Shown: in pieces, positions 3,161 to 24,030 of the stretch | Layout: every line of letters begins with the position of its first letter | Position numbering within the stretch: position 1 is the first letter of the stretch | Virus record (IMG/VR): IMGVR_UViG_3300042566_000678 | Span: 1 to 64,000 of that record | Direction: 5' to 3' (one strand) | Length of the DNA stretch: 64,000 bases | Origin: a virus | Made by a program: the position numbers and the translations under genes | The notes under the pieces: generated by a model | Databases searched by the model: none | The model's input: only the letters and a program-made list of their open reading frames with translations | What the model was told of the DNA's origin: nothing

Positions 3161-3664
3161 TTAATTTACAGATTCTATTCCATTTTCATCACCTCTGCTA
3201 GCAGTTTTAATACCACCTTCAATTGAAGATAATTTATGTCTAACTTTCTTTGAACCTTTTACTCTCCCATATTCATCCGATGGTACTAATGTTGCGGTTG
3301 TATCATCCATTTCAACAACTTTATAGTATTTACCACCTTCAATTCCTTTTAATCCGGTAAAACCAATTCCTAAAATTACAGAACCAACATATAAATTAGT
3401 TGGATACTTAACCTCTTTTACATATCCTTTCTTAACATATGCGTGTCTTGCTTTAAGATAATCGGCTTTGTGTGCTTTTATATAAGCCAACATTTCACCT
3501 GTTGTATCAAATGATTTTTGACCTGAACCTTTTATGTTGTCCATCCAAAATGAATCTGAATCTCTATCGTATGAATAATCGCCAACTTTTTCACCATCCA
3601 AAGTTATTACACTTTTTTCTGCTTTCCAAGTTTCCTCGTTCAATAATTCTTTTAACTTTATCAT
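3161..3664 (-). CDS. Putative internal head protein with capsid-targeting peptide
   Basis: 167 residues, N-terminus MIKLKELLNE with predicted cut after LNE. After it come WKAEKSVITLDGEKVGDYSY, a helix with ALKADY-like spacing, and a beta-rich C-terminal half with GGKYYKVVEMDDTTATLVP that looks like a small SH3-like barrel. The start codon overlaps the upstream stop by one base. No enzyme motif is visible. The N-terminus and gene order suggest that it is packed in the prohead and trimmed by the gp21-type protease; that is inference. Confidence 0.7.
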   Translation of the reverse strand: MIKLKELLNEETWKAEKSVITLDGEKVGDYSYDRDSDSFWMDNIKGSGQKSFDTTGEMLAYIKAHKADYLKARHAYVKKGYVKEVKYPTNLYVGSVILGIGFTGLKGIEGGKYYKVVEMDDTTATLVPSDEYGRVKGSKKVRHKLSSIEGGIKTASRGDENGIESVN

Positions 3665-4461
3665 TATCCTATATAGCAGTTTAATTCGTATCCGTTTTTC
3701 ATTCCGTATACCTGAATGTGTAATTGTTGTTTTGCTGGTTTACCACCTTTGGTAAGTTCTACCGACATCTTATTAGTTTTACCTTCGGATGGTCTTTTTG
3801 GTCCCATTCCAATTTTTCTAAATGAGTCATCATCATCTACCATATACCCTCGTTTCAAAGCGTATTCTTTTGCAGTTTGTATTGCTTCGGTATATGATTT
3901 GTGATATACTTTCAAATCATTTGCTTCGGTTACGGTTTCAACTTTTTTTTTACCAGCTCTTAAATCTGCCAAATCGTCTGAACCAATATCACCATCCTTA
4001 TCCAAATCTAATTTATGTTGATTACCAACTAATTCTTCGCTACGGATACCCAATCTTTGGTTTACTTCTTCTTCACTCAATTCACTAACACCATAGTAAC
4101 GTCCTATAATGTGTCCCATATCTTCGTATAGATTTTCCATTTGTGAATGTAATGACTTTGCCTCGTTAGCTATCTTTTCGAATTGAGATGATAGTTTGTT
4201 CAACTCATTCATATTACGTTTAACAGTCACATCATCAAAGTGATTACCGGCTTCTTTAATAGCAAACTCACTAGCTGCATCTGTGATTGCACCCAATGTT
4301 TCAGCAATTTGTGCCAAATCATTCTCATTCTTTAACTTTGGTCCAAATGAACCATAAGTAGAAATGATTTCTAAAAAGTGTCTTCTTGCTTCGTTGCTTA
4401 AAGTTTGTTTAGGTGCTTTTTTATCTTCACCTTCTCCCAATAATTTCTTTAACTTTATCAT
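3664..4461 (-). CDS. Putative internal head protein with targeting peptide and EF-hand-like loop
   Basis: 265 residues from the ATG at 4461 (MIKLKKLLGE). An in-frame TTG 15 bases upstream is less likely, because 4461 reproduces the one-base gap seen between neighbouring genes. The predicted cut is after LGE. Residues about 60-125 are helical. At about residue 148 the sequence LDLDKDGDIGSDDLADL is a calcium-binding EF-hand or dockerin-type loop (D-x-D-x-D-G-x-I). The C-terminal domain begins KVYHKSYTEAIQTAKEYA and ends with a beta-rich tail. The mosaic of modules resembles other head-cargo proteins of T4-like marine phages. Function unknown. Confidence 0.72.
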   Translation of the reverse strand: MIKLKKLLGEGEDKKAPKQTLSNEARRHFLEIISTYGSFGPKLKNENDLAQIAETLGAITDAASEFAIKEAGNHFDDVTVKRNMNELNKLSSQFEKIANEAKSLHSQMENLYEDMGHIIGRYYGVSELSEEEVNQRLGIRSEELVGNQHKLDLDKDGDIGSDDLADLRAGKKKVETVTEANDLKVYHKSYTEAIQTAKEYALKRGYMVDDDDSFRKIGMGPKRPSEGKTNKMSVELTKGGKPAKQQLHIQVYGMKNGYELNCYIG

Positions 4462-4694: not shown

Positions 4695-5279
4695 TTAGTT
4701 TAATTCTTCTATTATTTGTCTCATTAGGTCTTGTGCTTTACACCACTTACCACACTCTTCAATTTCTCTTTGTACGCTTTCATTCATAGCCGTTGGAGAC
4801 ATAAATGCACCATGTGTAGATGGGTTAGATACAAAATCCCAACCAATTAGTTCGAAATCTTCTTGTACCATTACCGTATTCTCTCTCATAGGTTTAACTG
4901 AACCCATACCTCTACTACTAATACCCAAACGAATATTGTGTTTGAATAACTCTTTTAAGATGTTACCAGACGGAGTTGAAAGAACTTCTACTGTACCACA
5001 TAAATCTTTACCATCCCACCAAATCTCTTTGATGTTGTGTGATACGTTCTTTAAGTTGATTACAGTTGATTCTGGATGGTCTAATTCACCTAATGCTCTA
5101 CGTTCTTGTATTAGGGTTTCGTATTTCTTTGCTTCCCTCTGTAATATGTTAAGAGGATAGATACGATGATTTTGGTTAGGAGCATCTGCTCTTTGCAAAA
5201 CGCCTTTAACCAAAAACTTTCCGTTTTCATCTTCTTGTATCTTACCTTCAAAAAGGTTGTGTTCTATTAATAATGCCAT
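4695..5279 (-). CDS. 21: Prohead core protease (T4 gp21-like)
   Basis: 194 residues, close to T4 gp21 (212). The fold and active-site landmarks of the phage prohead serine protease family are visible: His68 in GELDHPES and Ser121/Ser122 in LGISSRGMGSV, separated by the expected spacing, plus RIYP near residue 40. This enzyme cuts scaffold, capsid and internal proteins after (L/I)xE in T4-like phages. It is therefore the likely processor of the MIKLKxLLxE proteins encoded just downstream. It follows the endolysin gene by three bases and belongs to the same operon. Confidence 0.9.
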   Translation of the reverse strand: MALLIEHNLFEGKIQEDENGKFLVKGVLQRADAPNQNHRIYPLNILQREAKKYETLIQERRALGELDHPESTVINLKNVSHNIKEIWWDGKDLCGTVEVLSTPSGNILKELFKHNIRLGISSRGMGSVKPMRENTVMVQEDFELIGWDFVSNPSTHGAFMSPTAMNESVQREIEECGKWCKAQDLMRQIIEELN

Positions 5280-8212: not shown

Positions 8213-10057
8213 TTATTCGATTATATTTTGCTCATCCATCATACTCTTACCTTCCATTATCACCTTTGCTCCACCCGATTTCAAAGTTTTTTTGATTGAT
8301 TTGATGAAATTTTCATTACTTCTACTCAATTTCCTCAACTCCTTATCACCTAACGCATCTCTACCATACATATGGTCATCTTTACCCATACGATTTACAT
8401 GACGAGGTCTACCTGCTGCTTTTACTGATTCGTTTGGTGTTTGTCCTAACTTTGATTTTAAATCTTGTATAGTCTTTTCAACATCCAATGGTTCACCTGT
8501 TGGGAACTCATCTTCTTCTGGTTGGTCTTCTGTTGGTTGTTCTTCACCACCCATTTCAGGTTGTCCACCCATCATTCCACCTTGCTCTTGTTGTCCTTCT
8601 GGCTTTCCAGTTGTTTCTAAATTAGTTAATACAAATAGATTTTTAGCATCTTTAATTAAACCTTCTTTCATATCTTCAACATCATCATCGCTGAAATTGA
8701 ATACATTTTTGTAAACCCAATCTTTAGAAATCAATTTTAAATCGCCCATCGTTCTAGCCAAATCTACTTTAGATGACCATAATTCAATTTTAGATTGCTC
8801 ATAAATTGTGTATGGGATAGTCAATGATAATTCAAAATCAGTTAATTGTTCATCCTCAATACCTTGTGAGTATAAGTGAATGATTGCTATCTTTTCTAAT
8901 TCAGATGTTACAATTCTTTGAACTCTTTCAATAGTTTTGGCAAATCTCATATCCATAGCTGCTAATGTAGCTTTAGAATTACCATCCTCCAAAAATCCTA
9001 AATGTTGTTTTGGTATTTTTAATGCCGCAAACATTTTATCTTTTAAGTAGTTAATATCATCAATAGGAGCATACTCTAAACCATCTAAATTAGAGATTTC
9101 AGTACCACTATCACTACCACGAACTGGCAGATAGAAATCTTCCATCAAGTTTTGGATATTATACTTTAAGTTGTACTCACCAGTATCTGCGTTGATAATA
9201 GGTGCTTTCTTTGATTTGTTGATAATACGTTGAATGTAGTTATCAATCTCATTTGTAGGAATATTACCCACATCAATTTTGTAGATACGTTTTTGTGGTG
9301 CTCTACTGATACGGTGTATAATCATCGCATCTTCCATCAAAGTAATTTGCTTCCACAATCTTCTTGCACTCTCTAACATTGATTTACCATAAGGTAAAAA
9401 GTTAGTATCAGTCAACATACGAAAGTGAGCAATCTCATAGTTTTCGTATTCTGTTTTTTGTCCAGCTACATAAAGTGATTTAGTTGCTAATGGAGTGTGT
9501 ACAAACTTAACTGATTGCCAATTGTTTGGGTCATATCCTTCAACACGAGTAATTTCATAAACTGAAAGTGGTTGTATTCCTACAACACCCAACTCTTCTG
9601 CAATTTCAATATGTAAAAAATGGTCACCATATTTAACCAAACTTCTTACCCAAGGGAATAAGTTGAACTCAACGTTTATAATATCATAGAATAAGTTTTC
9701 TAATATAGATTTTATTTGTTCGTTGTTTGTTCTAACTTCTAATACTTTTCCGTACTCGTTTTTAGATGTAGATTCTTCTGCGTAAATATCTAATGCGGCA
9801 CCAATAATTGGGTCAGCATCCATAGCATCATAATCTCTAAAAAGTTCTTGACGGATTTGTTGGTATGCAAGATAATTCTCATAGGTATTATTCATAGCCG
9901 ATGAGTGTAATCTCATATATCTATCACGTAGATTAGTTGCAATTGATTGAGTTTCATCGTAATCAATTACCTTTAACTTATTCCCCTGCTTTCTTACGAT
10001 TACCGATGTAGAGAATAGTTTGTTTAACCTACCAAAAAATGATTTATCTGTTGCCAT
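8213..10057 (-). CDS. 20: Portal vertex protein (T4 gp20-like)
   Basis: 614 residues (T4 gp20 is 524). The family landmarks are present: a RYMRLHSSA-type opening, YDAMDADPIIGAALDIYAEE near residue 78, the wing region LVKYGDHFLHIEI, and the clip/stem stretch EYAPIDDINYLKDKMFAALK with PKQHLGFLED. An acidic, Gly/Gln/Glu-rich tail near residues 490-540 extends the usual length and probably is disordered. Twelve copies form the ring at the packaging vertex that binds terminase and nucleates scaffold assembly. It is placed between the terminase side and the head operon, as in T4. Confidence 0.92.
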   Translation of the reverse strand: MATDKSFFGRLNKLFSTSVIVRKQGNKLKVIDYDETQSIATNLRDRYMRLHSSAMNNTYENYLAYQQIRQELFRDYDAMDADPIIGAALDIYAEESTSKNEYGKVLEVRTNNEQIKSILENLFYDIINVEFNLFPWVRSLVKYGDHFLHIEIAEELGVVGIQPLSVYEITRVEGYDPNNWQSVKFVHTPLATKSLYVAGQKTEYENYEIAHFRMLTDTNFLPYGKSMLESARRLWKQITLMEDAMIIHRISRAPQKRIYKIDVGNIPTNEIDNYIQRIINKSKKAPIINADTGEYNLKYNIQNLMEDFYLPVRGSDSGTEISNLDGLEYAPIDDINYLKDKMFAALKIPKQHLGFLEDGNSKATLAAMDMRFAKTIERVQRIVTSELEKIAIIHLYSQGIEDEQLTDFELSLTIPYTIYEQSKIELWSSKVDLARTMGDLKLISKDWVYKNVFNFSDDDVEDMKEGLIKDAKNLFVLTNLETTGKPEGQQEQGGMMGGQPEMGGEEQPTEDQPEEDEFPTGEPLDVEKTIQDLKSKLGQTPNESVKAAGRPRHVNRMGKDDHMYGRDALGDKELRKLSRSNENFIKSIKKTLKSGGAKVIMEGKSMMDEQNIIE

Positions 10058-10102: not shown

Positions 10103-10609
10103 TTACCACTTTCTGCAAGACCAATATCTTGCTTTGTGTCTTGGACCGGGTTGGTCACAATTGTGTCTTGCTCTAAAAGACCTTCTTGCATCAGGATTAG
10201 ATTTTCTTATTCTCATTGTTTTTTCACCTTTAGATGCTGCTGATGTACCACCATGTCCAAAGTTTACTTTAACAACATTACCTGCTGGATTTTTTACATA
10301 TACTTTAAACTTTTTAACATCACCTCTCATTGGTTTACCCAATTTAACATCTCTACCTTGATATTCTGCTTCAAATACACAATTACAATTGGCTTCATCT
10401 AATGTATTTTTATATGCTTTTAAGAAAGCAATAAAATCATCAATATCTTCCTCTTCTACATCCAACTCATCGTAATCATCATCCTCAATAGCTTCGTTTG
10501 AATTTGGTACACAATTAGGAACTTCCTTTCCGTTCTTCATTTTCATACCAATTTGCTTATATCCATCCCAACAAGGAGAGTTTTCTTTAAGTAAATCCCG
10601 TAGTTTCAT
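10103..10609 (-). CDS. Putative internal head protein with MKLRDLLKE targeting peptide
   Basis: 168 residues from the ATG at 10609; the frame extends to a TTG upstream, but the ATG gives the conserved start. The N-terminus MKLRDLLKE matches the (L/I)xE-ending peptides of the cluster at 1.8-4.5 kb. A Cys-containing segment (SPCWDGYKQIGMKMKNGKEV, then PNCVPN) follows, then an acidic stretch, and a basic C-terminal domain with KVNFGHGG, SFRARHNCDQPGP and KARYWSCRKW. The last part is strongly reminiscent of a conserved protein of T4-like marine phages. It lies between terminase and portal and has its own proposed late promoter 26 bases upstream. Confidence 0.72.
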   Translation of the reverse strand: MKLRDLLKENSPCWDGYKQIGMKMKNGKEVPNCVPNSNEAIEDDDYDELDVEEEDIDDFIAFLKAYKNTLDEANCNCVFEAEYQGRDVKLGKPMRGDVKKFKVYVKNPAGNVVKVNFGHGGTSAASKGEKTMRIRKSNPDARRSFRARHNCDQPGPRHKARYWSCRKW

Positions 10610-10662: not shown

Positions 10663-12258
10663 CTATCGTAACAACCATCTTAAATCTTCAAACTCATCAC
10701 CATGCCCAGTTTGCATTTTGTATGGGTCATCACCAAACATACCAGGTGTGTATAAACTATCATGCGATGTTTGAACAAACCCCTCAATAGAACGTCTTGT
10801 CAAATCAATTCCTTCTTGTCTTAAACGTAATGCGGTATCTCTAATCCACAATCCCATACCCAATGCCATCACCAAGTCATCATTGTAACCTCTTGCCGCT
10901 TCCGCTCTACCATTATTCCAAATAAATGTAAAGAACTCATCAATTGTTCTCTTACTATGAATAATAACACTCATATCTCTCATATAAGTGTCTATCTTTG
11001 ATATTACCAACGGGCGGGTTTTAGATGATATACTAAAGCCAGGAACCATTTGCTTTTCATCTCTGTAAAACTTATTAGTAAATTGAGTATCAATATCTAC
11101 ATATTTAATATCTCTGTTAGACCAGAATAAATTTTTGTAGTTTCTATCTAAACATTGTTGGATAGTTGTCCAACCAATTGATGCATTATCAATGATTAGT
11201 AAAGCATCGTTATATTCAGTTGCTAAATTGATTAGGAAATTACCAAAATCTTTTGGTTCAATTTTACCTCTATATTCAGCAACTTGCTCACAACTCTCTG
11301 CTTCTATAACATGGGCAGTAGAATAATCTTCCCCATCTCCCCTTGCAACGTCAGCCGTAACTATATAACTCTTTGTATAATTTACATCTTCCCAAACCCA
11401 TAAGTTATTATCAAACCCACGCTTATACATTGGGTCTTTAACATATGCTTCTATGTACTTTGTTAAAATTTCTGGTTGAATTACCGTTGCTCCAGAACTG
11501 ATAAAGTCACAATCACATTCCTGTGCTGCTCCCTTTGGTCCTAATTGCTTTTCCTGCTCCTCTCTCCAACTATTATCTCTTTCAGGGTGAACCGTCCAAT
11601 GGAGTTTAATTGGATGAAATAAATTCTCACCATTTTCTGCTTTTACCCAAGTTTGGTGAAACCAATTACCAATACCATTTGGTGTAGATAATGCTATACA
11701 CGCACCACCCGTTGATAGAGTAGATTGTGCCGATGTCCAAATCTCTTCAATGTAATCAATAAAGGCTGCCTCATCAAATACCAATAGTGATAAGGCTTCC
11801 GAACGTCCTGCATCTGGTTTGGATGAAATTGCTTTGATTTGAGAACCATTCTTTAATCTTAAAGATAGTTTGTTATCTTCAGACTCTTGTACCCTTAACC
11901 ATACTGGTAAGAATTGGTTCATTACTCTCACCTTTAATACCAAGTTTTTTGCAACTTCTTGCTTTGTTGCAATAACCAACACGTTATAATCTTCGTTGAA
12001 TATCATACACCATAGTGCATAACCCGCAACTAATGTAGATATACCTAATTGGCGTGATTTTAGAACAACATTAAAACGATTATCTTTAAAATCGTTTAAT
12101 ACTCCTTCTTGAAAATCATATAAATCGAATGGTATTTTCCCACGAACTGGGTGTTGGATTTTACAAAACTTACGCATGAAATAGACGGGGTCTTTTGCAC
12201 AACGTTTGTATTGTTCTTTTACTGCATCTTGCAGAGATTTTGTTTGATTTACGGCCAT
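10663..12258 (-). CDS. 17: Terminase large subunit (T4 gp17-like)
   Basis: 531 residues. The N-terminal ATPase has an adenine-binding YDFQ motif near residue 47, a Walker A variant SRQLGIST near residue 69, Walker B LLVFDEAAFID near residue 157, and the coupling motif LSTPNG. The C-terminal RNase-H-like nuclease shows ADVARGDGEDYS and LLIIDNASIG with the expected acidic residues. The enzyme docks on the portal, pumps DNA into the prohead and cuts the concatemer. No clear small-terminase gene is visible next to it; the two upstream genes do not look like gp16. Confidence 0.93.
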   Translation of the reverse strand: MAVNQTKSLQDAVKEQYKRCAKDPVYFMRKFCKIQHPVRGKIPFDLYDFQEGVLNDFKDNRFNVVLKSRQLGISTLVAGYALWCMIFNEDYNVLVIATKQEVAKNLVLKVRVMNQFLPVWLRVQESEDNKLSLRLKNGSQIKAISSKPDAGRSEALSLLVFDEAAFIDYIEEIWTSAQSTLSTGGACIALSTPNGIGNWFHQTWVKAENGENLFHPIKLHWTVHPERDNSWREEQEKQLGPKGAAQECDCDFISSGATVIQPEILTKYIEAYVKDPMYKRGFDNNLWVWEDVNYTKSYIVTADVARGDGEDYSTAHVIEAESCEQVAEYRGKIEPKDFGNFLINLATEYNDALLIIDNASIGWTTIQQCLDRNYKNLFWSNRDIKYVDIDTQFTNKFYRDEKQMVPGFSISSKTRPLVISKIDTYMRDMSVIIHSKRTIDEFFTFIWNNGRAEAARGYNDDLVMALGMGLWIRDTALRLRQEGIDLTRRSIEGFVQTSHDSLYTPGMFGDDPYKMQTGHGDEFEDLRWLLR

Positions 12259-12271
12259 AATGCCTTACCTA

Positions 12272-12931
12272 TTATTTAATACGGATTTTCCAATATACAC
12301 CACCACCTATGTATGGAACTACCTGATTTCCACCATTGGTTGATTGCTGATTGGATATACCAAGATTTAATTGGTATAATTTATCTGTTTTTGTTTTTAG
12401 GATTACACCTGTACCAATTGAATTGCCGAAATTTACCTTATCTAATGCTCCGTTTATACCAACATATACTTGATTTTTAGGTAGTTCTTTTACTATCTTT
12501 GTATCAGTAATAGTTCGTTCTTTAATCGTAGCGTTCCACTTTCTACCTAATATTTTATTTTGGTATAAAGTATCTGTAAGTTCAATCATTCCCAAATCAT
12601 TATCTAAAACTAATTTATCTTTATACAAAACCTTTTGGTTATACGATTGAACTATTCTAATTGTATCTCCTTTTGTGTATACGGGAACTTCTATTTTTTT
12701 TTCTTTTTCAACAATTGTTTCGTGGTAAATATCTTTACCTCTAACATATTTTATTTTGGTGTGGTCTATTATTACAGTATCAATTTTGTGTTTTAACAAC
12801 TCGTAGTTTTTTCCATCTACATTTATAGTTTCACCTACTTTACCATCGCCTTTAGTACATTTGTACCATACGATTCCAGCAGTTGCAAAAATCACAATCC
12901 ATTTGATATTATTCTGTAAAAACTTTAGCAT
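12272..12931 (-). CDS. Membrane-anchored protein with C-terminal beta-barrel-like domain, paralogue of the gene at 57053
   Basis: 219 residues. A transmembrane helix (IKWIVIFATAGIVWY, residues 9-24) is followed by a charged, beta-prone periplasm-type region. The C-terminal third has alternating polar/hydrophobic strands (QVYVGINGALD...GVILKT...LYQLNLGIS...VPYIGGGVYWKI), as in small outer-membrane barrels. The stretch LGMIELTDTLYQNKILGRKW matches VGRIQITDTISHNRLVSRKW of the gene at 57053, so the two are paralogues. An envelope-spanning role at lysis (spanin-like) is one possibility. The gene overlaps the upstream one by 23 bases. Confidence 0.6.
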   Translation of the reverse strand: MLKFLQNNIKWIVIFATAGIVWYKCTKGDGKVGETINVDGKNYELLKHKIDTVIIDHTKIKYVRGKDIYHETIVEKEKKIEVPVYTKGDTIRIVQSYNQKVLYKDKLVLDNDLGMIELTDTLYQNKILGRKWNATIKERTITDTKIVKELPKNQVYVGINGALDKVNFGNSIGTGVILKTKTDKLYQLNLGISNQQSTNGGNQVVPYIGGGVYWKIRIK

Positions 12932-13547
12932 AATCTTCTTTTATTATTTCCCAGCTATCATCTTTTATTTTCTGATAACCAGATATGTTTTCTTCGGCTT
13001 CTGCAATATCATTTTTGATATTACTTTTTAACTCTTCCAAATCACCATCGTATGACCACTTTTCAGTTGTACCATCCGAGTTGGCAAATATATGTTCTTT
13101 ACTTGCATCTACTAATGCTTCGTTGAACTTTTTAATTAAATCTTTTAAAAACTCAATTTCGTAAGATGCAATTTTCCACTTTTCGTATTCGTTCCAATTA
13201 CCTTTTACTCTGAATGTTTGTTCTTTTTCAGCTAAACAATCTATACAGTAACCAGTCTTACGAATAAATTGTAAATGTTTTTGAGTTTTCTTAACTGTTC
13301 TACAATTTTTACTTTTACAAGTAGATAATGATTGTATGTATTCCCTAATTCCATCGAATTTAGATTTAACAATCTTATATCCCTTTTCTTGTACCCAAGT
13401 TACACCATCACTATCCGTCCACTCTTCACCAACTGCTCTATCCTGCTTTGTAGTAGACCAACCATGTGTGTTTGTTCCACCATTATCTCTGTTAAAAGCT
13501 ATATCCAAAATCTTTTTTCTGGATGGGTGCATATATTTCTTACTCAT
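12909..13547 (-). CDS. Conserved phage protein with paired Cys motifs, unknown function
   Basis: 212 residues starting MSKKYMHPSRKKILDIAF, which resembles a protein family I associate with T4-like marine phages near the terminase. Cys residues at CKSKNC and YCIDC (about residues 77-100) could bind zinc. The C-terminal half is a long helical, coiled-coil-prone segment (YEIEFLKDLIKKFNEALVDA). Its place just upstream of the terminase region would suit a packaging or small-terminase role, but no helix-turn-helix is evident, so I leave the function open. Confidence 0.6.
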   Translation of the reverse strand: MSKKYMHPSRKKILDIAFNRDNGGTNTHGWSTTKQDRAVGEEWTDSDGVTWVQEKGYKIVKSKFDGIREYIQSLSTCKSKNCRTVKKTQKHLQFIRKTGYCIDCLAEKEQTFRVKGNWNEYEKWKIASYEIEFLKDLIKKFNEALVDASKEHIFANSDGTTEKWSYDGDLEELKSNIKNDIAEAEENISGYQKIKDDSWEIIKEDYAKVFTE

Positions 13548-13595: not shown

Positions 13596-16500
13596 TTAGT
13601 AAAATATTCCTAACAATTGATTTAATGAAGCAAATGCTCCAGTCATCTTAAATACATTACCTTTGTATGTGAATATAATTCCTTCATTTGGAACTATCTT
13701 TTCAAATCCACCAATTGAATTTAATCTTTCTAATTCCAATTTCATTTTTTCAATTTGAGCGGGTGTACCTTCTGCTTTTATTTTATCTATCGTAGAGTCT
13801 AATCTTTTACGGATTGCTTGTAGTGCTTCATTTGGAGATGCAGTCAATACTGATTGCATAAATTGTAAAACTTCTGCGCCTACACCTAAAAATATTTCTT
13901 CAAATTTCATTAGGTTTTCCTTTGCAATCTTATCCTTACTTTGTTTTTCAATACCATCAGCCCAAGCTCTAGCTTTTTCATCACCAATTAAATTGATTCG
14001 GAATGATTTATCACCAAACGCCCATCTTTTTGTTAAACCTTCGATTTCCAATGATGTTAAACCTTTAGAACCTTTTTGTATATAAGTTTTCCACCACGCT
14101 TGATGGTAATCTGCTACTCCAGCATTATCTGGCAAAGTAAACTCACCTTGTAATTTAGATATTTTTGCAAGGAATTTACTTTTCTGTGAGCTTAAATTTT
14201 CACTCTTTGGTAATTTAACAATTGGTGGGCCTTGTATTGTATATTTAGATTGGATATGTGCATTTACTTGCTTTATCATACCGGCCAATATACTTTCAGC
14301 TCCTTTTATTTGTCCAATAGCGTTTCCGGCTTCGTTGTATTCTACTGCGTTGTGAAATACTAACAATGCTTGCCCATAAGGAATAACATTTACAGATGTT
14401 GGATAAATAACCTCTAAATTCATAAATGCTTTACCATTCATAAAGATTTTATCTTTTTGTGCTTGCGATAATCCTCTAATAGCACTTTCCAAATCTTTCA
14501 TAGCAAAGTTGTATGCATCACTCAATGCTCCTCTACCAGCAAATTTTGAAGCCATACCAGAAGCATCCAATGCATTTTCCCCAGCATTTGCCAAATGCCC
14601 TTTGTTTCTTGCTGCAATTAATCTACCATTTTTCCAACTGATTGCTAATGCCTGTCCATCCGTTTTTTCTCTAACTACACCCAACTCACCATCCAATGCT
14701 TTACTAACAATAGTTTTTAAATCTTTAAATGTTAGGTTTATATCAGTATCAAATGGATGATTCATATGTCCATAAGCACCACCTTCCATTAACAAACTTT
14801 CGTTTACAGATTTTGTTTTCTTTTTGTATGGTTCGTATCCACGATTTTGAGTATCTTTTGTATCAGTTTGATGGCCTGGTTGCTTTTCTCTATTATCATC
14901 ATCAAAATCTATCGTATCAAACTCCGGTTCATATCCGTAATCCGGTGTATATGATGAACTCTTATGGTGTTTATTAAAGTTAGCATCTGCTGTACCAACT
15001 GGTTCGTGATTTTTACTAGTAATTGCTTCACCAAACGCACTATGTTTAACTTTATACCAACCGCCGCCGGGTGTTGTAAATAATCTTGCTGGTATTCTAA
15101 ATGTAGAACCTATTGGTAATTTACTGAAATACTTACTATCTATGTGAACCACTTTTGTCACAAACTCTCTAGTCTTGTTATCGGCACCAATCAATTCAAC
15201 CTCAATCTTTACAGGTTGTCCACCTATTTTGATTGTTCCACCAAATATGCCCTTTGTTATTTCATTTAATTTATCTTCTACTTGATAAACAGGTGTTGAT
15301 GATTTGAAATCATCTTTTCTCATTATAGTTTTAGCAATCAATTTGTTTGCTTGAACCATAAATGGAATGTTAATACCAGTTCGTTTATCCTTTACTACAA
15401 ATTCATTGTATTGTTTGATAAACTCTAAAAACTTTTTCTTATTCTTTGCTAATCTTTTAAAGAAACCAGTTAGTTCTGCTGGTGATATTTCTTTACCATT
15501 ACGAGGGTCATTCAATCTTTGGAAAAAATGGTCTGTTTCTTTTCCTAATACAACATCTTCAGGTGATAATTGAGAGTCAGCGTATTTTTCTACCTTATCC
15601 ATATCAACCTTTGCCATTTCTTTTAATTCATTTGGGTTTGTAGTTTCCCAATCTGTTTCACTAACCTTGCCACTTTCCTTGTCTTTATTATATCCATCAA
15701 CCGCTTTTGCCCAAACCGCTGGTGGTATAGCTCCATTCATTATATTATCGGCAAGTTGTAATGTAAAGTATTCAATGTAAGTTTCATCTGTAATGTTTTC
15801 TGCACCGGCATTTAATACTGCCTTACCAATACCCATAGTTGCAACTTCCACTGCCATATGTTCCGCAAGGTGTAAACCTACACCTGCCAACAATTTAGCA
15901 GGTCCTACTGCAAGTGAAGCAACACCCCCCGTCAATAACATACTACCAACAGTCAAACCTACTGTTTTAGCAATACCAATCATTGCTTTCTTTTGTTTTT
16001 CATCTGGTTTTTTACCAGAGAAAACTGCTTTAAATCCTTCCCCTGCTTCTTTTATTTCGTGCCCTAAATGTTTTGCTTCTCTAACTACACCCTTTACAAT
16101 ACCTTTTGCTTTATCAGCCATCCACTGTCCAACACTACGTCTTTCTTCAGATTGAGGCTTATGTGCTCCTTTGAAAAAATCTTTTTCCTTTTCACTCCAA
16201 TTTTTTATTTTTTGGCCCACTGCTCTTAATACCGCTTTTGGATTTGATACTGCCGTTTTAGCAACCTTTGTTGCGGATGCTTGCGAATCTTTTTCTCCAC
16301 TTTTTGCAACTGATGGTGATTGTACTTTTTGTTTAACCTTTTGTAATTTTTGCTTATCCGAGCCACCGGCTTTTGCAACCAACATCATTGCAGCTTTGTA
16401 AGCAGGATGGTCTCGTTTATAGTTCAATGCGGAACTTACTTTAATATCTTCACCCGTATCTGGGTTTTTTACTAACTGATTTAGGATTTGTGGAGAATAC

Positions 16501-17615
16501 CCACTACCCTTTACGGATGCTTCTTTTACAATGCTCTCACCATAACCAGTATATAAACCCAAATTAACTTGGTTTACTTTATCACTCTTTGGTGATGATT
16601 GTCCCTTTTCTATGTTACCCGGTACTTGTCTTTGTTTCATCAAAGCATGAGTATGTAATACACGCATTGCTTCTTGGTATGCAAATTCTTTTCTATCCAA
16701 TTTAATAGCATCTTTGATACGGTATTTCTTACCAGTTGCCTGGTCAGCAATTTCCATATTCATTATGTTTTCCCAACCTACCGCATCTGGTTCATAATCA
16801 ATATCACCTTCAATGGTCATTAACTTATCGTAGTATTTAGGGTCTTCGAATATATGGTCTCTTGCAATCTCTGCTGCTACTCTCATATCGGTAGTGTGTT
16901 CCATTTCCACATTCACACCCTTCTTAAACTCTTTCTTTATAGTATCTAAATCTACTTTGTGTTTATCTGCTATTTGAGCCAATGTCATACCTTTAGATAA
17001 TCCACCCGGTATAAACTCCTTTGCTTCGTTTAATTCTTTATTTAACATTTGGAATATATCTTTATTGTATTTACCAAAAAACTTTTGGAATTGCTTTTCC
17101 TTTTCGTCTGCTGATAAATTACTACGAAACATATTTCTTACATCGGTTGCACCAAATGAGTTTGATGGAGTTTTAGAATATACATAACCTCTTGTCATAT
17201 AACCTTCCATATCCTTATCATTTTTGTAAGGTTTAAAGTATTGTCCACCCAATCTCATTGCATCCTTTTCACCCAATGCTATAATAAGAGCAGTAGTGGT
17301 TGAATCAAAATCACGTAAGATTTCTACTGGTTGGTATGGGGATTTTACTTGAATGAACTTTGATGGTGGGATACCAAACACTTTAACTGCAATATCACGT
17401 TTCTCATTAAAAGAAAGTGGTGATTTATTTGAATCTTGCACATTTGATGTTGCAATATAAACATTCTTTGCTCCAAATACCGAACAAAGGTGTTTGTATG
17501 TTTTATAGTGACCAGCGTGAAATGGTTGAAATCTTCCACCATATACTACCATCTTTTCTTTTACTGCTTCGGTTAGCAAGAAAGTTTCCACTAAATAGTT
17601 TGATAATTCATTCAT
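13596..17615 (-). CDS. Giant multidomain protein: NMNAT-like domain, helical middle, ligase-like nucleotidyltransferase
   Basis: 1339 residues. Residues 1-16 (MNELSNYLVETFLLTE) may be a targeting peptide ending in an LxE site. Residues about 20-200 form a cytidylyl/nicotinamide-mononucleotide adenylyltransferase fold, with GRFQPFHAGHYKTY and a GATDVRNMF motif (ISSTxxR-type). At about 230-275, MEHTTDMRVAAEIARDHIFE looks like the DUF5661 family. A hydrophobic helical region lies near 545-600. The C-terminal 380 residues (DUF6267-like; AYGHMNHPFD entry) carry nucleotidyltransferase motifs: EKTDGQ near 982, AARNKGHL, MNLEVIYP near 1067, EGIIFTYKG near 1308 and FKMTG. Internal LNE (about 195) and LME (about 950) sites could allow cutting by the prohead protease. 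It may be a packaged enzyme acting early in the host. Substrates are unknown. Confidence 0.75.
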   Translation of the reverse strand: MNELSNYLVETFLLTEAVKEKMVVYGGRFQPFHAGHYKTYKHLCSVFGAKNVYIATSNVQDSNKSPLSFNEKRDIAVKVFGIPPSKFIQVKSPYQPVEILRDFDSTTTALIIALGEKDAMRLGGQYFKPYKNDKDMEGYMTRGYVYSKTPSNSFGATDVRNMFRSNLSADEKEKQFQKFFGKYNKDIFQMLNKELNEAKEFIPGGLSKGMTLAQIADKHKVDLDTIKKEFKKGVNVEMEHTTDMRVAAEIARDHIFEDPKYYDKLMTIEGDIDYEPDAVGWENIMNMEIADQATGKKYRIKDAIKLDRKEFAYQEAMRVLHTHALMKQRQVPGNIEKGQSSPKSDKVNQVNLGLYTGYGESIVKEASVKGSGYSPQILNQLVKNPDTGEDIKVSSALNYKRDHPAYKAAMMLVAKAGGSDKQKLQKVKQKVQSPSVAKSGEKDSQASATKVAKTAVSNPKAVLRAVGQKIKNWSEKEKDFFKGAHKPQSEERRSVGQWMADKAKGIVKGVVREAKHLGHEIKEAGEGFKAVFSGKKPDEKQKKAMIGIAKTVGLTVGSMLLTGGVASLAVGPAKLLAGVGLHLAEHMAVEVATMGIGKAVLNAGAENITDETYIEYFTLQLADNIMNGAIPPAVWAKAVDGYNKDKESGKVSETDWETTNPNELKEMAKVDMDKVEKYADSQLSPEDVVLGKETDHFFQRLNDPRNGKEISPAELTGFFKRLAKNKKKFLEFIKQYNEFVVKDKRTGINIPFMVQANKLIAKTIMRKDDFKSSTPVYQVEDKLNEITKGIFGGTIKIGGQPVKIEVELIGADNKTREFVTKVVHIDSKYFSKLPIGSTFRIPARLFTTPGGGWYKVKHSAFGEAITSKNHEPVGTADANFNKHHKSSSYTPDYGYEPEFDTIDFDDDNREKQPGHQTDTKDTQNRGYEPYKKKTKSVNESLLMEGGAYGHMNHPFDTDINLTFKDLKTIVSKALDGELGVVREKTDGQALAISWKNGRLIAARNKGHLANAGENALDASGMASKFAGRGALSDAYNFAMKDLESAIRGLSQAQKDKIFMNGKAFMNLEVIYPTSVNVIPYGQALLVFHNAVEYNEAGNAIGQIKGAESILAGMIKQVNAHIQSKYTIQGPPIVKLPKSENLSSQKSKFLAKISKLQGEFTLPDNAGVADYHQAWWKTYIQKGSKGLTSLEIEGLTKRWAFGDKSFRINLIGDEKARAWADGIEKQSKDKIAKENLMKFEEIFLGVGAEVLQFMQSVLTASPNEALQAIRKRLDSTIDKIKAEGTPAQIEKMKLELERLNSIGGFEKIVPNEGIIFTYKGNVFKMTGAFASLNQLLGIFY

Positions 17616-17633: not shown

Positions 17634-20600
17634 TTATAGAGAACCACTAATTTTTGCCTCTAATTCTTCTACTCTTTTATTTAAGTCTTGTACTACTTTA
17701 AGCATGGATGAAAATATAGATTGATAATATACACCATCTACACTTCCAGAATTATCATATATTACCCAATCCGTATAATTCAAATCAGCTACTTCTTCTG
17801 CTATAAGTCCTGCATGCAGTACATTAGAAACTGTTGTATCTTTATCTTTAAAAGATACAATATTCAAATCCAAAATTCTTTTTGCTGTTTCTAATGGTTG
17901 GGGGGTTATTTCTTTTTTATATTTTCTAGATGATGAAACCTTTTTTACATTACCAAGACCATCAACACCTAAAGTAGTTAAACCAGATGCCGAATATAAA
18001 AAATCAAATGATAATGAATCATCGCCTCCGCTACCTCCGGTATTTTGATACAATCGTATTCGTGGAGTAAACATTGCTTCTCGAAGTAGATAAGTAGAAA
18101 ATCCAAAGGGTTCAAAAACTATTTGACCACCATTACTTATTCTCAAATCACCACCGCTTAAACTTGCACCAGCTAGATTACCAGCAAAAGTTCCAGTTGC
18201 ACCTGTTATGTTTGCACCACTTAAATTTCCACTAAAAGTTCCACTCGCTCCCGTAATGTTACCAGTAAATGTACCACTACCATTTATAGAAAGTGTACTA
18301 CCATTAAAAGTTAATTTATCACCTAATGAAAAATTACCATTATTATCTACATAAAATCCAGTACCACCAGAACCAAATGTACCACCACCTATGTATATTC
18401 GTTTATTTACACCATCCAAAACAATTCCAGAACTACCTACTCTAAATTGTTCACTAAAATAACCAACCTGTCCACCAATTACAGGTGAATAAATAGTAGT
18501 AGAACTAATAAATGTACCTGAATATCCACCATTTGCTAATGATGCTACTTGTGCCGCTGCGTTATTAAATGCGGTATTTGATTTGTTTGTAGCATCGGTT
18601 GATGCAGCTGATATTGCCGCATTTCGTGCTGCATCTGATTTGTTAGTTGCATCACTAGATGCTACGGATACTGCGTTATTATATGCATTATTGGCTTTTG
18701 TAGTTGCATCTCCGGATGCAGTTGATATTGCACTATCACGCGCCGAATCGGCTTTTGATTGTGCACCACTTGTGGTTTCAGCATTACCACCCGTAACATT
18801 TATTGTACCCGTTATAGTTGCACTAGTTGCGGTTAATGCACCCGCCATACTTACTCTAAATGGTGCAGATGAAAATGTTGCATTTCCTAAATATATACCA
18901 TTGCTATCTGCTTTGAATATATTGTTACCACTACCAATTGAAATAGTACCTCCACTCAATGCCCCACTAAATGTACCCCCAGCTGCTGATAAATCGCCAC
19001 TAAATGTACCATTACCATTTATCGAAAGATTAGTACCATCAAATGTAAGTTTATCGGTTAGTGAGAATTTACCATCACTATCTAAATATACTTTTGTGTT
19101 TGTGTTGTTATATGTACCAGTTCCTATATAAATTCTACGAGTAGATGTGGTTGCATCCAATACAATTGAGTTTGGTGGTGCACCTACTGTGAATTTACCA
19201 CTAATGTAACCAGCCGTACCACCAATTACAGGTGCAAATACCGTTGTACCATCTATAAACGTACCACTAAATCCACCATCTGCCAATCTTTGTAGATTAT
19301 AAAATGATTGCGAAGTTGAAGTTGCAACACTTCTACTTACACTTTGAGACAATTCAGATACGGATTTTGAAATACTGCTTGTTAAACTTCCACTTAAACT
19401 AGCACTACCACTAAATACATCTTCAAAATACGAACCAGAAAAAGTATCAATAGCACCACTAACGGCTGTTATAGTAGTTGCTAATGTAGTTAAATTATCG
19501 TTACCACCAGTAAATGTTTTTGAAGCAGTAACTGCTACTGGAATGTAGTTATTATTTACATCGAAAAACTCAAATTTAAAGTTGAATGTTTCGTTTGATA
19601 TATTGGTTGGCATTGATACAATAAACGATACCTCATTTGGTGAGAATACCGTTTCCGCAGATGCTCTTAAACTAATATCTTTTAGAAACCAATTACCTTG
19701 CGTTTGTTTGAAATATAATGATGCAGTTGGTTCTGATTTTGGTAATGAGAATTGTGCTACATAATTTGTAAAATTACGAGTTGGAAATAATCCATTAATT
19801 GTATTTATCGTTCTATCACCATTTTGAGAACCACTTATGTGTATTTCTAAATTACTTTGAGATGAACCAGTATAAAAACCATCCAATGATAATTCATAAA
19901 CGGTAATATCACTTAAATCTAAAGATGATGTATATCTAAAATTACCACTTCCATTTAATCTAACTGCCGTTGAACCAGAAAATTGTGTTGTATCTAATGT
20001 TGCTGACAAGGAACCAGTATTCCAAAACTTTGAAAGTATTTGAGAATTAAAAACGCCGGTATCGGTTATTACACTACCAGTTGCTTCAAACGTTTGCAAT
20101 AATTCTTTTGCTTCAATTTGAATATCTTGTATTAATTCAAAATCACTAACCGTACCTTCCGATGTACGATACACCTTTACCCGTTTTACATCACCTGCGA
20201 ATGTTTCTAAACGAGATAGTTTTATGTTTGCATATGAAGCGGTAATGGCAGATGCGGATACCGATGAACCAGATACACTATAAATTGGTTTTAATAATTC
20301 GGTAATTGTTGCTTGTGGTCTTCTAAAGAAACGAACACGTGTTGTGTTTGCTAATGTTGGGTTTATATTTGCTTGCCCAATATATCTAACATTATATTTA
20401 CCCTTCCATATTTCAGGTACTTCAGTTTTACTACCATTATTATCGTAAAACTTTAACTCCCCTAAAATTGTAATTGTACAAGGACCGAATGCGGTTGAGT
20501 CAATTGCTTGTTCTACACTATCCGATGGATAAACATAAACTGCTATAACCTTTGATATACCTTCATAGTATTCAGGTAAACCATCTGAACTTTCTGTGTA

Positions 20601-20816
20601 AACAACTTTACCATTTGAATCTTTAATCTGAACTAACACTTCTGTGTTTGGTTCTAAATAATCAGTACCCGCTATTAAGAACGCATTTTTACCACCCGTA
20701 AAAGTATCGGGTAATTCGGTAAGATTAAAATATTGTGAAGTTACTCTCCTATCTTCAAGAAATACCGATTTTAATTCTAGTTGATTATCAGGTGCAACTT
20801 TAACTTCTACTGCCAT
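17634..20816 (-). CDS. Tail fibre protein with C-terminal S74 intramolecular chaperone
   Basis: 1060 residues. The N-terminal part (about 1-400) is beta-rich with a lectin-like segment. A helical linker follows, then two copies of a beta-structured module starting ADGGFSGTFIDGTTVFAPVI (about residue 509) and ANGGYSGTFISSTTIYSPVI (about 762). Between them is an Ala/Ser-rich heptad region typical of trimeric fibres. The last 90 residues are a Peptidase_S74 chaperone (SSSRKYKKEITP, LHAGLIAEEVADL, and a terminal coiled coil DLNKRVEELEAKI) that trimerises and then cleaves itself off. The domain set suggests receptor binding at the cell surface. The duplicated module may provide modular host range. 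Confidence 0.88.
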   Translation of the reverse strand: MAVEVKVAPDNQLELKSVFLEDRRVTSQYFNLTELPDTFTGGKNAFLIAGTDYLEPNTEVLVQIKDSNGKVVYTESSDGLPEYYEGISKVIAVYVYPSDSVEQAIDSTAFGPCTITILGELKFYDNNGSKTEVPEIWKGKYNVRYIGQANINPTLANTTRVRFFRRPQATITELLKPIYSVSGSSVSASAITASYANIKLSRLETFAGDVKRVKVYRTSEGTVSDFELIQDIQIEAKELLQTFEATGSVITDTGVFNSQILSKFWNTGSLSATLDTTQFSGSTAVRLNGSGNFRYTSSLDLSDITVYELSLDGFYTGSSQSNLEIHISGSQNGDRTINTINGLFPTRNFTNYVAQFSLPKSEPTASLYFKQTQGNWFLKDISLRASAETVFSPNEVSFIVSMPTNISNETFNFKFEFFDVNNNYIPVAVTASKTFTGGNDNLTTLATTITAVSGAIDTFSGSYFEDVFSGSASLSGSLTSSISKSVSELSQSVSRSVATSTSQSFYNLQRLADGGFSGTFIDGTTVFAPVIGGTAGYISGKFTVGAPPNSIVLDATTSTRRIYIGTGTYNNTNTKVYLDSDGKFSLTDKLTFDGTNLSINGNGTFSGDLSAAGGTFSGALSGGTISIGSGNNIFKADSNGIYLGNATFSSAPFRVSMAGALTATSATITGTINVTGGNAETTSGAQSKADSARDSAISTASGDATTKANNAYNNAVSVASSDATNKSDAARNAAISAASTDATNKSNTAFNNAAAQVASLANGGYSGTFISSTTIYSPVIGGQVGYFSEQFRVGSSGIVLDGVNKRIYIGGGTFGSGGTGFYVDNNGNFSLGDKLTFNGSTLSINGSGTFTGNITGASGTFSGNLSGANITGATGTFAGNLAGASLSGGDLRISNGGQIVFEPFGFSTYLLREAMFTPRIRLYQNTGGSGGDDSLSFDFLYSASGLTTLGVDGLGNVKKVSSSRKYKKEITPQPLETAKRILDLNIVSFKDKDTTVSNVLHAGLIAEEVADLNYTDWVIYDNSGSVDGVYYQSIFSSMLKVVQDLNKRVEELEAKISGSL

Positions 20817-20862: not shown

Positions 20863-23800
20863 TTATTTGTGTGAGATTTTTGAGTATCCGTTTTCCTTTT
20901 TGATTTCCACCAAAGTATCTACCACATCTCTAATCTGGTCTAAATGGGAAATGATTGTTACAAAATCAAATTGAGTTTTAAGGTACTGAAACAATAGGAA
21001 TGTTGATTGCAGGTTTTCACCATCTAATGTTCCAAATCCTTCATCCAATACTAAAAAGTTAGGACGAGGTAAGTTACATACATTAATAAGTGCAACCCTA
21101 ATTGCCAACCCACTAATGAACTTCTCCATACCACTACACATCTCCAATCCCCATTCTTGGTCTTCATATACAATGTTAGCAGTTATGTTCTTCCCATCCA
21201 TTGTTAAAGTAATACCAAAATCTACAATCTGTGATAGGATATTATTTACCTCACCTTCGATTACAGGTAATGATTTAGCAATCAAATCGTAAGATACACC
21301 ATCTCTTTTTACTGCATCTAAATAGAAATCGTATGTTACATATTTTTCTTCCAACTCACTTGCTTCTTCGATTTTTTGGTACATACCAGCAATCTTTTCT
21401 AGCAATCTAGAGCTTGAACCAGTTATTGACAACATTTCTTTTTGTACGGAGGCAATACCTTTATCAGCAATTTCAATATTACCTTTAGCAATATCAATAT
21501 CTTTTTGAAGAACTTTATTGTTTTTGATTGTAGCTTCATTTTCGTGATACCTTTGTATTAAAGTTTCAATGTTCTGTAACTCAAGTTCAGCTGCTTGCTT
21601 TTTACTTTCATATGATTTAATATCAACTACTAATTTTTCAGCACTCAACTTACCTTTATCAAACTTTTGTTTAAATGATGTGTATTCATTATAATTATCA
21701 ACTACACCATTCAATTGCTCTAATTTATATAAAGTTTTTGCGTAGTTTTTTTCTAACTCATCTAATACAATCTTTTGACTACGAACTTCTTCTTCCGTTT
21801 TTTGTGCATCCTTTACGAATACATTATTCATACAGAAATTACAATTTGGGTCATACTCATGCTCTGCCAAATGTACCAACTTTTCCTCATTCTTTTCCAA
21901 CGAAATTTTACACTTTTCAATTGAGTGCAAAGATGATGTTTGTAAAGATGCTAAACGAATATAATCTGTGTGTGCAGTTTCAATATCTGTATCACCAAAT
22001 GTTGCCAACTCATTTATACTTTGTGAGATTTGAATTAAAGCATCTTTGAATTGTTCTAATTGTTCCAACTTTTTAGATTCATCATTTTTAAGTTGCTGTA
22101 TTTTATCTAACTGATTTTGTTTCTTATTATCCAACACATCAATATCCACAATACTAGCATCTACTGCCACCAATTGTTGTGTAAGTTTTAATAGGGTATT
22201 GTTGTGTTCTAAACGACTTTCAGTTAGTTCTTCGTACTTTCTCTCCTCAATCGAATAACTATCGTTTAGAGCCACTACTTTTAACTCGTCATTAGCCAAT
22301 TCCGTTGTGAAATCATTTGATTTAAATTTCTTTAATAAAATTTGAACTTCTTTGATGTCTTCCAATGCATGAGCGTATAATTTATCAAACACATTTATTC
22401 CCATAAATTGTGCCAATAAATCTTTTCTTTCTGATTGAGATTTATCAATGAACAAAGCGTTGTTTCCTTGTAAAGATAAAGCGGTTAATACAAAATCTTC
22501 ATAAGTACCCAAATATTGTGAGATGTTTTTGTTTGTATCTCTACGTTCTGTTCCGTTTAATAAGATTTGTTGTCCATCTACCTCTTTCCAAAACTGAACA
22601 TCTACTTTTACATTTGTTCCTTTTGAGTTTTGGTGTGCGGTTCTTTCGATAAAGAAATCCTCATCGTTAATTTGGAAATGTAATTTACATTTGAAATTAG
22701 ATTTACGATTGTTTAATATAGCAGATGCTCTAAATGCTCTACTACATTTATCAAATGCGCAGAATGATACTGCATCAAAGATAGATGATTTACCACTTGC
22801 ATTCGGTGCAAATAGACCAATTACACCATTTAACTTTGTGAAATCAATAACATTATCTTCTCCATATGAGAACATATTTGAAAACTCAAATTTAATAGGT
22901 TTCCATACAATGTTTTTAGCCAAATCTTCATCTGTAAGTCTTTTGTTTAATTCTGTGTTTAATGATTTAACATTTGCAAGGTTGTGTGCATCAATTGAAA
23001 ATGAACGTACTAAATAATCTTCAATCAAACTGTTTTGATAATCTACATCGTTAATATCGCCAACATTAATTTTACCATCTCTAACACCATTACGGAGTTT
23101 AGATAAACTGTCTGTTTTAGTAATCGTAAATTCATCAACATTATATTTCTTTTTAATTTCAGTAGTAACCCGCTTCATATCTCCAACATCCGTATTGGAT
23201 ACATAGACACGAAGACGTGGTTTTTTAGGCATATCCGTTACAATAGGAACTATACCATTATCAACGTGTAATGTGTAGTAACCATAATCGTTTGGAATAT
23301 CAACGTAAGTAGGAGTCAAAGTTTCAACATCCCAAATAGCATACCCGTGATTTTCTAATGCTTCACCATGTGATTGCTGAATAAGAGAACCCGGATAAAC
23401 TACAATTGGATTTGATTGTTTAACAGTTTGACGTTTATGAATATCACCTAATAAAGCTGCATCATATCCTTCAAAAATATCTGTGGTAAAATTACGAGAG
23501 CTGATAACGTATCCAATATCTGTTTGGGATTTATCAATAGGTCCGTGGAAAAGTGCTATCTTAACATCACCTTGAATATCAGTTCCTTTTGGCCAATTCT
23601 CTTTCTTATCAAAGATACTGAATACACCAAATGTAATATTATGAACTTTAACTACATCGGTATCTCGTAGGTAATATAAATTAGGCAGATTAAGTCCATC
23701 TACGATTGGAGATAAAGCATCCAATCTGTGGATATTATTTAAATTACAATCGTGATTACCTGCGATTAAGAATGTAGGACATAATTCTGAACACTCTCTT

Positions 23801-24030
23801 AAAAAAGCTGAAATCTCTTTTACTAATTCGGGTGATAATTCCAATTTAGCATGAGCTATATCCCCAGCTAAATAAATTATTGCATCCTCTGTACCACGTT
23901 GCTTAATATCTGAATATAATTTTTGGAACACTTCCTTATATTCTTCATGTCTCTTCAAATTGCGAATGTGGACATCTGCAATATGATAAATGGTCTTAAT
24001 TTTCTTAAAACCTAAATCTATATTTCTCAT
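20863..24030 (-). CDS. 47-46: Fused Mre11-Rad50-type recombination nuclease/ATPase (gp47-gp46 in one polypeptide)
   Basis: 1055 residues. Residues about 12-265 are a calcineurin-like nuclease domain with IADVHIRN, LAGDIAHAK, IAGNHDC, LFHGPID and LLGDIHKRQ, as in T4 gp47/Mre11/SbcD. From about 375 comes an SMC-type ATPase: Walker A FAPNASGKSS near 407, a long coiled coil, a zinc hook CNFC near 728, the signature CSGMEKFISGLA near 963, Walker B FLVLDEGFGTLDG near 992 and a switch His (SHLDQ). In T4 these are two genes, 47 and 46; here there is one continuous frame with no internal stop. It should process DNA ends for recombination-dependent replication and host DNA breakdown. The ATG overlaps the primase stop (ATGA), so the two are coupled. 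Confidence 0.92.
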   Translation of the reverse strand: MRNIDLGFKKIKTIYHIADVHIRNLKRHEEYKEVFQKLYSDIKQRGTEDAIIYLAGDIAHAKLELSPELVKEISAFLRECSELCPTFLIAGNHDCNLNNIHRLDALSPIVDGLNLPNLYYLRDTDVVKVHNITFGVFSIFDKKENWPKGTDIQGDVKIALFHGPIDKSQTDIGYVISSRNFTTDIFEGYDAALLGDIHKRQTVKQSNPIVVYPGSLIQQSHGEALENHGYAIWDVETLTPTYVDIPNDYGYYTLHVDNGIVPIVTDMPKKPRLRVYVSNTDVGDMKRVTTEIKKKYNVDEFTITKTDSLSKLRNGVRDGKINVGDINDVDYQNSLIEDYLVRSFSIDAHNLANVKSLNTELNKRLTDEDLAKNIVWKPIKFEFSNMFSYGEDNVIDFTKLNGVIGLFAPNASGKSSIFDAVSFCAFDKCSRAFRASAILNNRKSNFKCKLHFQINDEDFFIERTAHQNSKGTNVKVDVQFWKEVDGQQILLNGTERRDTNKNISQYLGTYEDFVLTALSLQGNNALFIDKSQSERKDLLAQFMGINVFDKLYAHALEDIKEVQILLKKFKSNDFTTELANDELKVVALNDSYSIEERKYEELTESRLEHNNTLLKLTQQLVAVDASIVDIDVLDNKKQNQLDKIQQLKNDESKKLEQLEQFKDALIQISQSINELATFGDTDIETAHTDYIRLASLQTSSLHSIEKCKISLEKNEEKLVHLAEHEYDPNCNFCMNNVFVKDAQKTEEEVRSQKIVLDELEKNYAKTLYKLEQLNGVVDNYNEYTSFKQKFDKGKLSAEKLVVDIKSYESKKQAAELELQNIETLIQRYHENEATIKNNKVLQKDIDIAKGNIEIADKGIASVQKEMLSITGSSSRLLEKIAGMYQKIEEASELEEKYVTYDFYLDAVKRDGVSYDLIAKSLPVIEGEVNNILSQIVDFGITLTMDGKNITANIVYEDQEWGLEMCSGMEKFISGLAIRVALINVCNLPRPNFLVLDEGFGTLDGENLQSTFLLFQYLKTQFDFVTIISHLDQIRDVVDTLVEIKKENGYSKISHK

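Follow-up and report, generated by a model that had tools for sequence, protein, structure and literature searches.

The window analysed here comprises positions 1 to 64,000 of the virus record IMGVR_UViG_3300042566_000678 in IMG/VR, which has 148,235 bases and is possibly incomplete. On its minus strand, a gene for a 1339-residue protein that joins an adenylyltransferase-like domain at the N-terminus to a ligase-like domain at the C-terminus is placed among head genes, in the order tail-fibre-like gene, fused gene, two small open reading frames (ORFs), large terminase, portal, prohead protease and a likely scaffold (Table 1). The original prediction had recognized this 1339-residue frame without naming a strand; the frame is intact on the minus strand, and the plus-strand reading of 13596-17615 is full of stops. 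All motifs listed there are present, namely GRFQPFHAGH (residues 27-36), GATDVR (155-160), KTDG (984-987), LEVIY, EGIIF and FKMTG, where residue r occupies positions 17615-3r+1 to 17615-3(r-1). In alignments of 41 C-domains, 31 N-domains and 37 whole proteins, GRFQPF, the lysine, aspartate and glycine of KxDG, the glutamate of motif III, the EG pair and the final lysine are invariant. Because of this invariance across relatives, the motifs are no chance occurrence. The protein is real, conserved and unusual.

A family with fixed ends and a variable middle

Relatives of the fused protein occur in hundreds of uncultivated viral contigs, with the two nucleotidyltransferase-like ends fixed and the middle variable. 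C-domain relatives are encoded by 203 of 206 viral-contig stretches matching a pattern, and 304 of 304 stretches are related to the protein of Microcystis phage Mel-JY01; the best 80 of the 206 and the best 80 of the 304 were kept (loci are numbered with the prefix L). There are 165 ORFs with the C domain, of which 78 start inside the locus, and the N domain is also present in 74 of the 78. The four exceptions are the two copies of a gene with the ligase-like domain only (L005/L086), L068, and L099, in which the gene is naturally split. Complete ORFs of relatives have 639 to 1642 amino acids (aa), the middle accounts for 147-842 residues in the 72 measured ones with both ends, and marine members carry up to 631 residues ahead of the N-terminal domain. 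In L099 (128-1747 and 1747-4929) and L081 (365-2692 and 2735-3568) the gene is found as two ORFs. A protein with both ends is limited, in 50,697 phage records, to Mel-JY01, on which no paper was found in the literature, and one uncultured jumbo phage; the C domain occurs in a second. In bacterial genomes, four contigs of metagenome-assembled genomes match, and these are probably phage.

The middle varies among relatives, and the order of its modules changes. A Pfam scan of 37 relatives gave CTP_transf_like in 33, DUF5661 in 14, AAA_33 in 12 and Zeta_toxin (P-loop kinase) in 11, and more rarely PolyA_pol_RNAbd (2), PolyA_pol (1), HD (1) and Zn_protease (1). In L087, one ORF of 2428 aa combines kinase, CCA/poly(A)-polymerase, HD, NMNAT and ligase-like domains. 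No peptidase model was detected in the 1339-aa window protein. Its phrog_14518 module has a counterpart of 55-57% identity in Flavobacterium phage immuto. That phage also has, ahead of its terminase (L002:8875-11598), a 907-aa protein annotated as NMNAT/NadR, in which pol-beta-like, NMNAT-like and metalloprotease-like parts can be recognized by eye (a Peptidase_M91 match is sub-threshold only). No relative of this 907-aa protein was found by BLAST, nor one of the 841-aa protein of immuto among the loci compared.

Such proteins resemble the polyvalent proteins of Iyer et al. (2017; PMC5512222), which have at least two domains of disparate activity in one chain, as the window protein does, and for which host entry with the DNA is predicted and strong domain shuffling described, as in the fused family. 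The term NMNAT is absent from that paper, according to which its 2H domains do not occur together with RNA ligases. Polyvalent proteins are processed by zincin-like peptidases embedded in them, a common though not universal feature, whereas for the window protein the prohead protease is the candidate. In the literature on polyvalent proteins with prohead protease or capsid targeting, no such fused protein was among the matches listed.

Terminal domains and their separate counterparts

The N-terminal domain matches CTP_transf_like in Pfam at residues 24-72 (E 1.1e-4). Its AlphaFold model has a predicted local distance difference test (pLDDT) of 82.6 and a fold of the nicotinamide mononucleotide adenylyltransferase (NMNAT)/NadD/phosphopantetheine adenylyltransferase (PPAT) type, a HIGH-superfamily fold whose GRFxPFHxGH and TxxR motifs are present; in a marine clade of relatives, FGPHH replaces FHxGH. 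The closest comparison is with NMNAT of M. thermautotrophicus (Z 12.6, root mean square deviation 2.5 over 145 residues), although scores from 12.6 to 11.3 mean a tie among the NMNAT, NadD and PPAT cousins. Archaeal NMNATs rank first in the sequence profile match (E 1.4e-7). By its model, the N-terminus is an NMNAT-type fold, which may make nicotinamide adenine dinucleotide (NAD) from nicotinamide mononucleotide (NMN) and ATP.

No model of Pfam or NCBIfam gives a name to the C domain, residues 945-1339. With its AlphaFold model (pLDDT 74.2, predicted template modelling score 0.60) as query, Foldseek lists RNA ligases in nearly all top rows, with E from 0.015. In the structural alignment, residue 50 of the model pairs with residue 36 in T4 Rnl2 and with residue 100 in T4 Rnl1, and thus the KTDG lysine (residue 49 of the model, 984 of the protein) lies on the nucleophiles of these enzymes, which we take to be K35 and K99. 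Structure prediction, proposed as a check in the original prediction, therefore gave nucleotidyltransferase folds at both ends as claimed there, and the alignments agree in the conserved active-site residues. The ligase motifs are named here as we understand the usual scheme; motifs IV and V fall in a low-confidence part of the model and are assigned by sequence pattern only. Like T4 RNA ligases 1 and 2 in fold and in the register of motif I (KxDG), the domain differs from them by its motif V and by the presence of some 190 additional residues, most of them helical, that separate motifs III and IV. RNA ligases Rnl1 and Rnl2 carry KxK at motif V, whereas KxT is found in 41 of 41 aligned C domains, with K388 and T390 invariant, so that caution is needed in calling the C domain an RNA ligase. 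Over 35 columns, its motif III stretch shares 37% identity with the phage Rnl1 family (E 0.0032); as a yardstick for such sequence-profile comparisons of ligases, Rnl1 against LigA scores no better. From sequence and model, we treat the C domain as a separate family with a predicted ligase-like nucleotidyltransferase activity.

Other assignments of the C domain were rejected. The match to E. coli LigA, the NAD-dependent ligase, spans motif I only (E 0.015 with the single sequence, 0.013 with five LigA sequences), and the NMN-binding region of LigA, as we take it to be placed, does not align with the C domain, which counts against an NAD-dependent ligase. Nor do the motifs of T4 DNA ligase gp30 align. 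The C-domain profile retrieved only implausible ribosomal S6 and TetR matches from PDB sequences, and NCBIfam over the 41 members gave seven weak families, including LigA at E 0.055 in one member, taken as chance.

The C domain is probably akin to DUF6267 (PF19782), a family with tblastn matches in 469 of the 50,697 phage records and on which no paper was found in the literature. H-L/M-x-H-x-x-D near the start, KxDG, EG and the final lysine stand at matching places in both. However, the PF19782 model is reached by none of the 37 fused-family members, and the profile comparison is weak (E 0.039, against 0.13 and 0.69 for unrelated controls).

In cyanophages, relatives of the two ends are neighbouring genes, and the NMNAT-like gene stands alone beside the DUF6267 gene, whereas the window protein is fused. 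The window N domain is homologous to this cyanophage NMNAT-like/cytidylyltransferase family (E 1.1e-10). A HIGH-type-motif gene is located one to three genes on from DUF6267 in six of eight records examined; in S-CRM01 and ACG-2014f, none lies within the flank of DUF6267. In Pelagibacter phage HTVC008M, DUF6267, a kinase and an NMNAT-like protein are near neighbours, and the kinase is 44% identical to the kinase module of L133. The presence of NMNAT-like proteins in virions is already known: those of S-SCSM1, S-SZBM1, S-CREM2 and S-CBWM1 have been interpreted as NAD enzymes (PMC9602691, PMC10665884, PMC9146016), and the cytidylyltransferase SSZBM1_140 was detected in purified S-SZBM1 virions with 2 peptides (PMC9146016). 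SSZBM1_140 has a targeting-like start of the same kind as the fused protein, with IIE as its last three residues (end at residue 9); the gene beside it encodes a DUF6267 protein in which KWDG and EGFV motifs occur. Similar peptides start the NMNAT-like proteins of S-RIM8 and Melnitz. A fused multi-site polyprotein, or the ligase-like nature of the C domain or of DUF6267, was not found in print.

Head-gene context and [LI]xE sites

The fused gene keeps its place among head genes. Of 96 loci with at least 4.5 kb downstream, 94 have the large terminase downstream on the same strand and 93 the portal; the two loci without a downstream terminase are the L005/L086 copies. In T4, the prohead protease gp21 has L/I-X-E specificity and removes targeting peptides, and the internal proteins IPI-III and Alt share with the fused protein a short N-terminal peptide ending in L/I-X-E, a gp21-type protease and a head-gene context (PMC9026906). 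While these T4 proteins lose end propeptides (PMC9026906), the fused protein has several sites between enzyme domains. Of the 52 distinct N-termini of relatives, 51 have an [LI]xE that ends at residues 6-22. For comparison, 42 of 198 phage ORFs have one at residues 6-20, 9 of 20 in the head region and 33 of 178 elsewhere.

At the joint to the ligase-like domain, an [LI]xE stands directly before the GGAYGH start of this domain in 153 of 160 ORFs (of the 165, those in which the GG-start motif is preceded by no fewer than 4 residues), or 79 of 81 distinct contexts, against a background of 0.94% per position in the same proteins; its middle residue is free and the linker ahead is variable. Ahead of the kinase module, nine of 17 contexts have [LI]xE, six have VxE and two have neither. 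The original prediction had pointed to LTE, LNE and LME sites at domain borders. Such sites do lie there (LTE/A at 16, LNE/A at 197, LNE/I at 785, LME/G at 944), but the full list in the window protein, with ends at 10, 16, 116, 197, 257, 523, 585, 666, 785 and 944, means that some fall inside domains. In 34 non-redundant proteins out of the 72 complete ones, [LI]xE occurs at 0.25% per position inside the two terminal domains versus 1.89% outside, compared with 1.5% versus 1.6% for the reversed pattern. By alignment columns the site is avoided in the C domain (11 vs 25). Judging from these alignments, its rarity inside both domains is in part shared ancestry.

A MIKLKxLLxE-like start is carried by small ORFs at 2173-2760, 3161-3664, 3664-4461 and 10103-10609 (minus strand) and at 101449-101979 of the record (L169), which are likely further head cargo by this start. 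Five of 198 ORFs match strictly, compared with a mean of 0.08 and a maximum of 2 in 500 shuffles; this count is descriptive since the pattern was written after viewing the ORFs.

Table 1. Features of the fused gene, its neighbours and RNA-related genes of the same record (window positions unless marked)
Feature	Position	Strand	Remarks
Whole ORF	13596..17615	-	1339 aa, intact, ATG start
Capsid-targeting-like start MNELSNYLVETFLLTE, residues 1-16	17568..17615	-	[LI]xE ends at 10 and 16
NMNAT-type nucleotidyltransferase domain, residues 17-197	17025..17567	-	Predicted release at LTE16 and LNE197
Variable middle piece, residues 198-666	15618..17024	-	DUF5661 and hydrophobic stretch
DUF5661, residues 214-269	16809..16976	-	Pfam E 4.7e-15
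Shuffled module phrog_14518, residues 667-785	15261..15617	-	Between LKE666 and LNE785
Variable module, residues 786-944	14784..15260	-	Ends in LME944
Predicted cleavage site LME/G at joint to ligase-like domain	14784..14792	-	
Ligase-like nucleotidyltransferase domain, residues 945-1339	13599..14783	-	K984, D986, G987, E1068, E1311, G1312, K1323
Tail-fibre-like gene	17634-20816	-	
212-aa ORF directly downstream of fused gene	12909..13547	-	Kept in many relatives; no Pfam match
Large terminase	10663..12258	-	Downstream, same direction as fused gene
Portal protein	8213..10057	-	
Prohead protease, predicted cutter	4695..5279	-	Peptidase_S77 E 2e-26
Likely scaffold gene (our reading)	206-1390	-	No match in PHROGs
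Rnl1-type RNA ligase	59493-60566	-	E 1.4e-19; no targeting-like start
P-loop kinase adjoining Rnl1-type ligase	60563-60988	-	No targeting-like start
2H phosphoesterase-like protein	Record 139891-140487 (L171:15891-16487)	-	2_5_RNA_ligase2 E 1.9e-8; Acb1 anti-CBASS E 2e-5

Probable delivery in the virion and possible purposes

We consider it probable that the fused protein is a cargo polyprotein, packaged in the prohead, cut by the protease and delivering its enzymes at infection. The N-terminal peptide would bring the polyprotein into the prohead core, where the gp21-type protease would cut after [LI]xE sites. The targeting peptide would be lost in this way, and the NMNAT-type enzyme, the ligase-like enzyme and at least one middle module would be set free. 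The predicted pieces are residues 17-197, 198-666, 667-785, 786-944 and 945-1339. The freed enzymes may then be ejected with the DNA and act ahead of phage gene expression. If so, a polyprotein route is added to the known ways of phage protein delivery, in which one targeting peptide serves many enzymes and release depends on a protease already present in every such head.

Splitting by the prohead protease had been suggested in the original prediction, which mentioned neither the swappable middle nor the position next to the terminase across the family nor the cyanophage relatives with separate genes. The joint site and the Peptidase_S77 protein of the same phage support it, but enrichment at borders does not: [LI]xE near the ends of shuffled BLAST segments is 1.32 times the expected, and the reversed pattern gives 1.33. 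Several further observations weigh against the cargo polyprotein as proposed. The N domain does not avoid the site by alignment columns (5 vs 5). T4 Alt, a known cut cargo, is undepleted with 8 sites in 682 aa, and therefore depletion is no general mark of cargo. The jumbo-phage relative L004 has 22 sites spread along the protein. The DUF6267 neighbour SSZBM1_141 is without a targeting-like start and goes unmentioned in the main text of PMC9146016, and no proteomics was found for the window phage or any fused relative. As for the ligase-like end, its model is middling and the fold match weak, with no Foldseek E below 0.001 and Z at most 5.4. Packaging and cleavage are nevertheless likely.

What the enzymes do is a guess. 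The two constant ones would most likely cooperate against damage that host defence inflicts on nucleotides or RNA ends, the ligase-like enzyme sealing RNA ends or carrying out another adenylate transfer and the NMNAT-type enzyme acting on NAD or a related dinucleotide. The original prediction had proposed repair of NAD or RNA as the purpose, and both are plausible. The RNA-end half is helped by the modules for a kinase and a CCA/poly(A) polymerase that some relatives carry, and it also fits the phage's own Rnl1-type ligase and kinase and its 25 tRNA genes in L171 and L172 (record about 140.8-147.7 kb), a set in which every one of the 20 amino acids is represented. Two more ORFs that begin in a targeting-like manner, one matching a polynucleotide-kinase PHROG and the other a 2H family, fit as well. 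The second of them is the 2H phosphoesterase-like protein, in which an internal methionine is followed by the targeting-like MKLRKILKE. NAD repair would agree with the NMNAT fold and with proposals in print, yet it is weakened since no NadV-type enzyme (PF04095) turned up in this possibly incomplete record. A virion-delivered repair kit that mends defence-damaged tRNAs and NAD ahead of the first reading of phage genes is a tentative proposal, and may well prove wrong; it would contain an RNA-end sealing enzyme and an NMNAT-type enzyme, and in relatives also a 5'-end kinase and a CCA-adding enzyme. Bolder still, and a long shot, the ligase-like domain would take AMP from NAD and the NMNAT would turn the released NMN back into NAD, a cycle that would explain the joint retention of both enzymes.

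The cargo may instead be packaged and cut for a metabolic purpose, NAD supply to support the growth of the phage, with the ligase-like domain performing an unrelated or non-RNA adenylate transfer. The published interpretation of the cyanophage virion proteins and the invariable KxT at motif V agree with this, yet the missing NadV-type enzyme speaks against it, and the kinase, CCA/poly(A)-polymerase and HD modules of relatives, together with the Rnl1, kinase and 25 tRNAs of this phage, point to RNA; we regard it as unlikely. Less likely again is a multifunctional enzyme made late and acting inside the cell, unpackaged, whose LxE sites are incidental linker composition. The lack of virion data for fused proteins, the border test and the undepleted T4 Alt would suit such an enzyme, but the joint site keeps its place behind a variable linker, the starts are of one kind, the gene stays in the head operon, and the split relative SSZBM1_140 has been reported in virions. 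A structural or scaffold head protein with recruited, inactive enzyme folds, to which the position among head genes could point, is very improbable because decayed enzymes would lose the active-site residues that are invariant over 41 C domains and 31 N domains.

Should the cargo polyprotein be confirmed, the genome place that this gene occupies in hundreds of aquatic viral contigs, with its constant ends and exchangeable middle, could be searched for new counter-defence enzymes. For DUF6267, a role could then be tested in which it serves as a ligase-like nucleotidyltransferase and has a virion NMNAT as its partner.

Elsewhere on the minus strand, a 1055-aa ORF at 20863-24030 fuses SbcD-like and SbcC-like parts, the counterparts of T4 gp47 and gp46. 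The same strand carries, at 61191-64497 and further on to record position 76890, a multi-copy paralogous family of about nine small ORFs, 107-132 aa long and beginning with MLTIxN.

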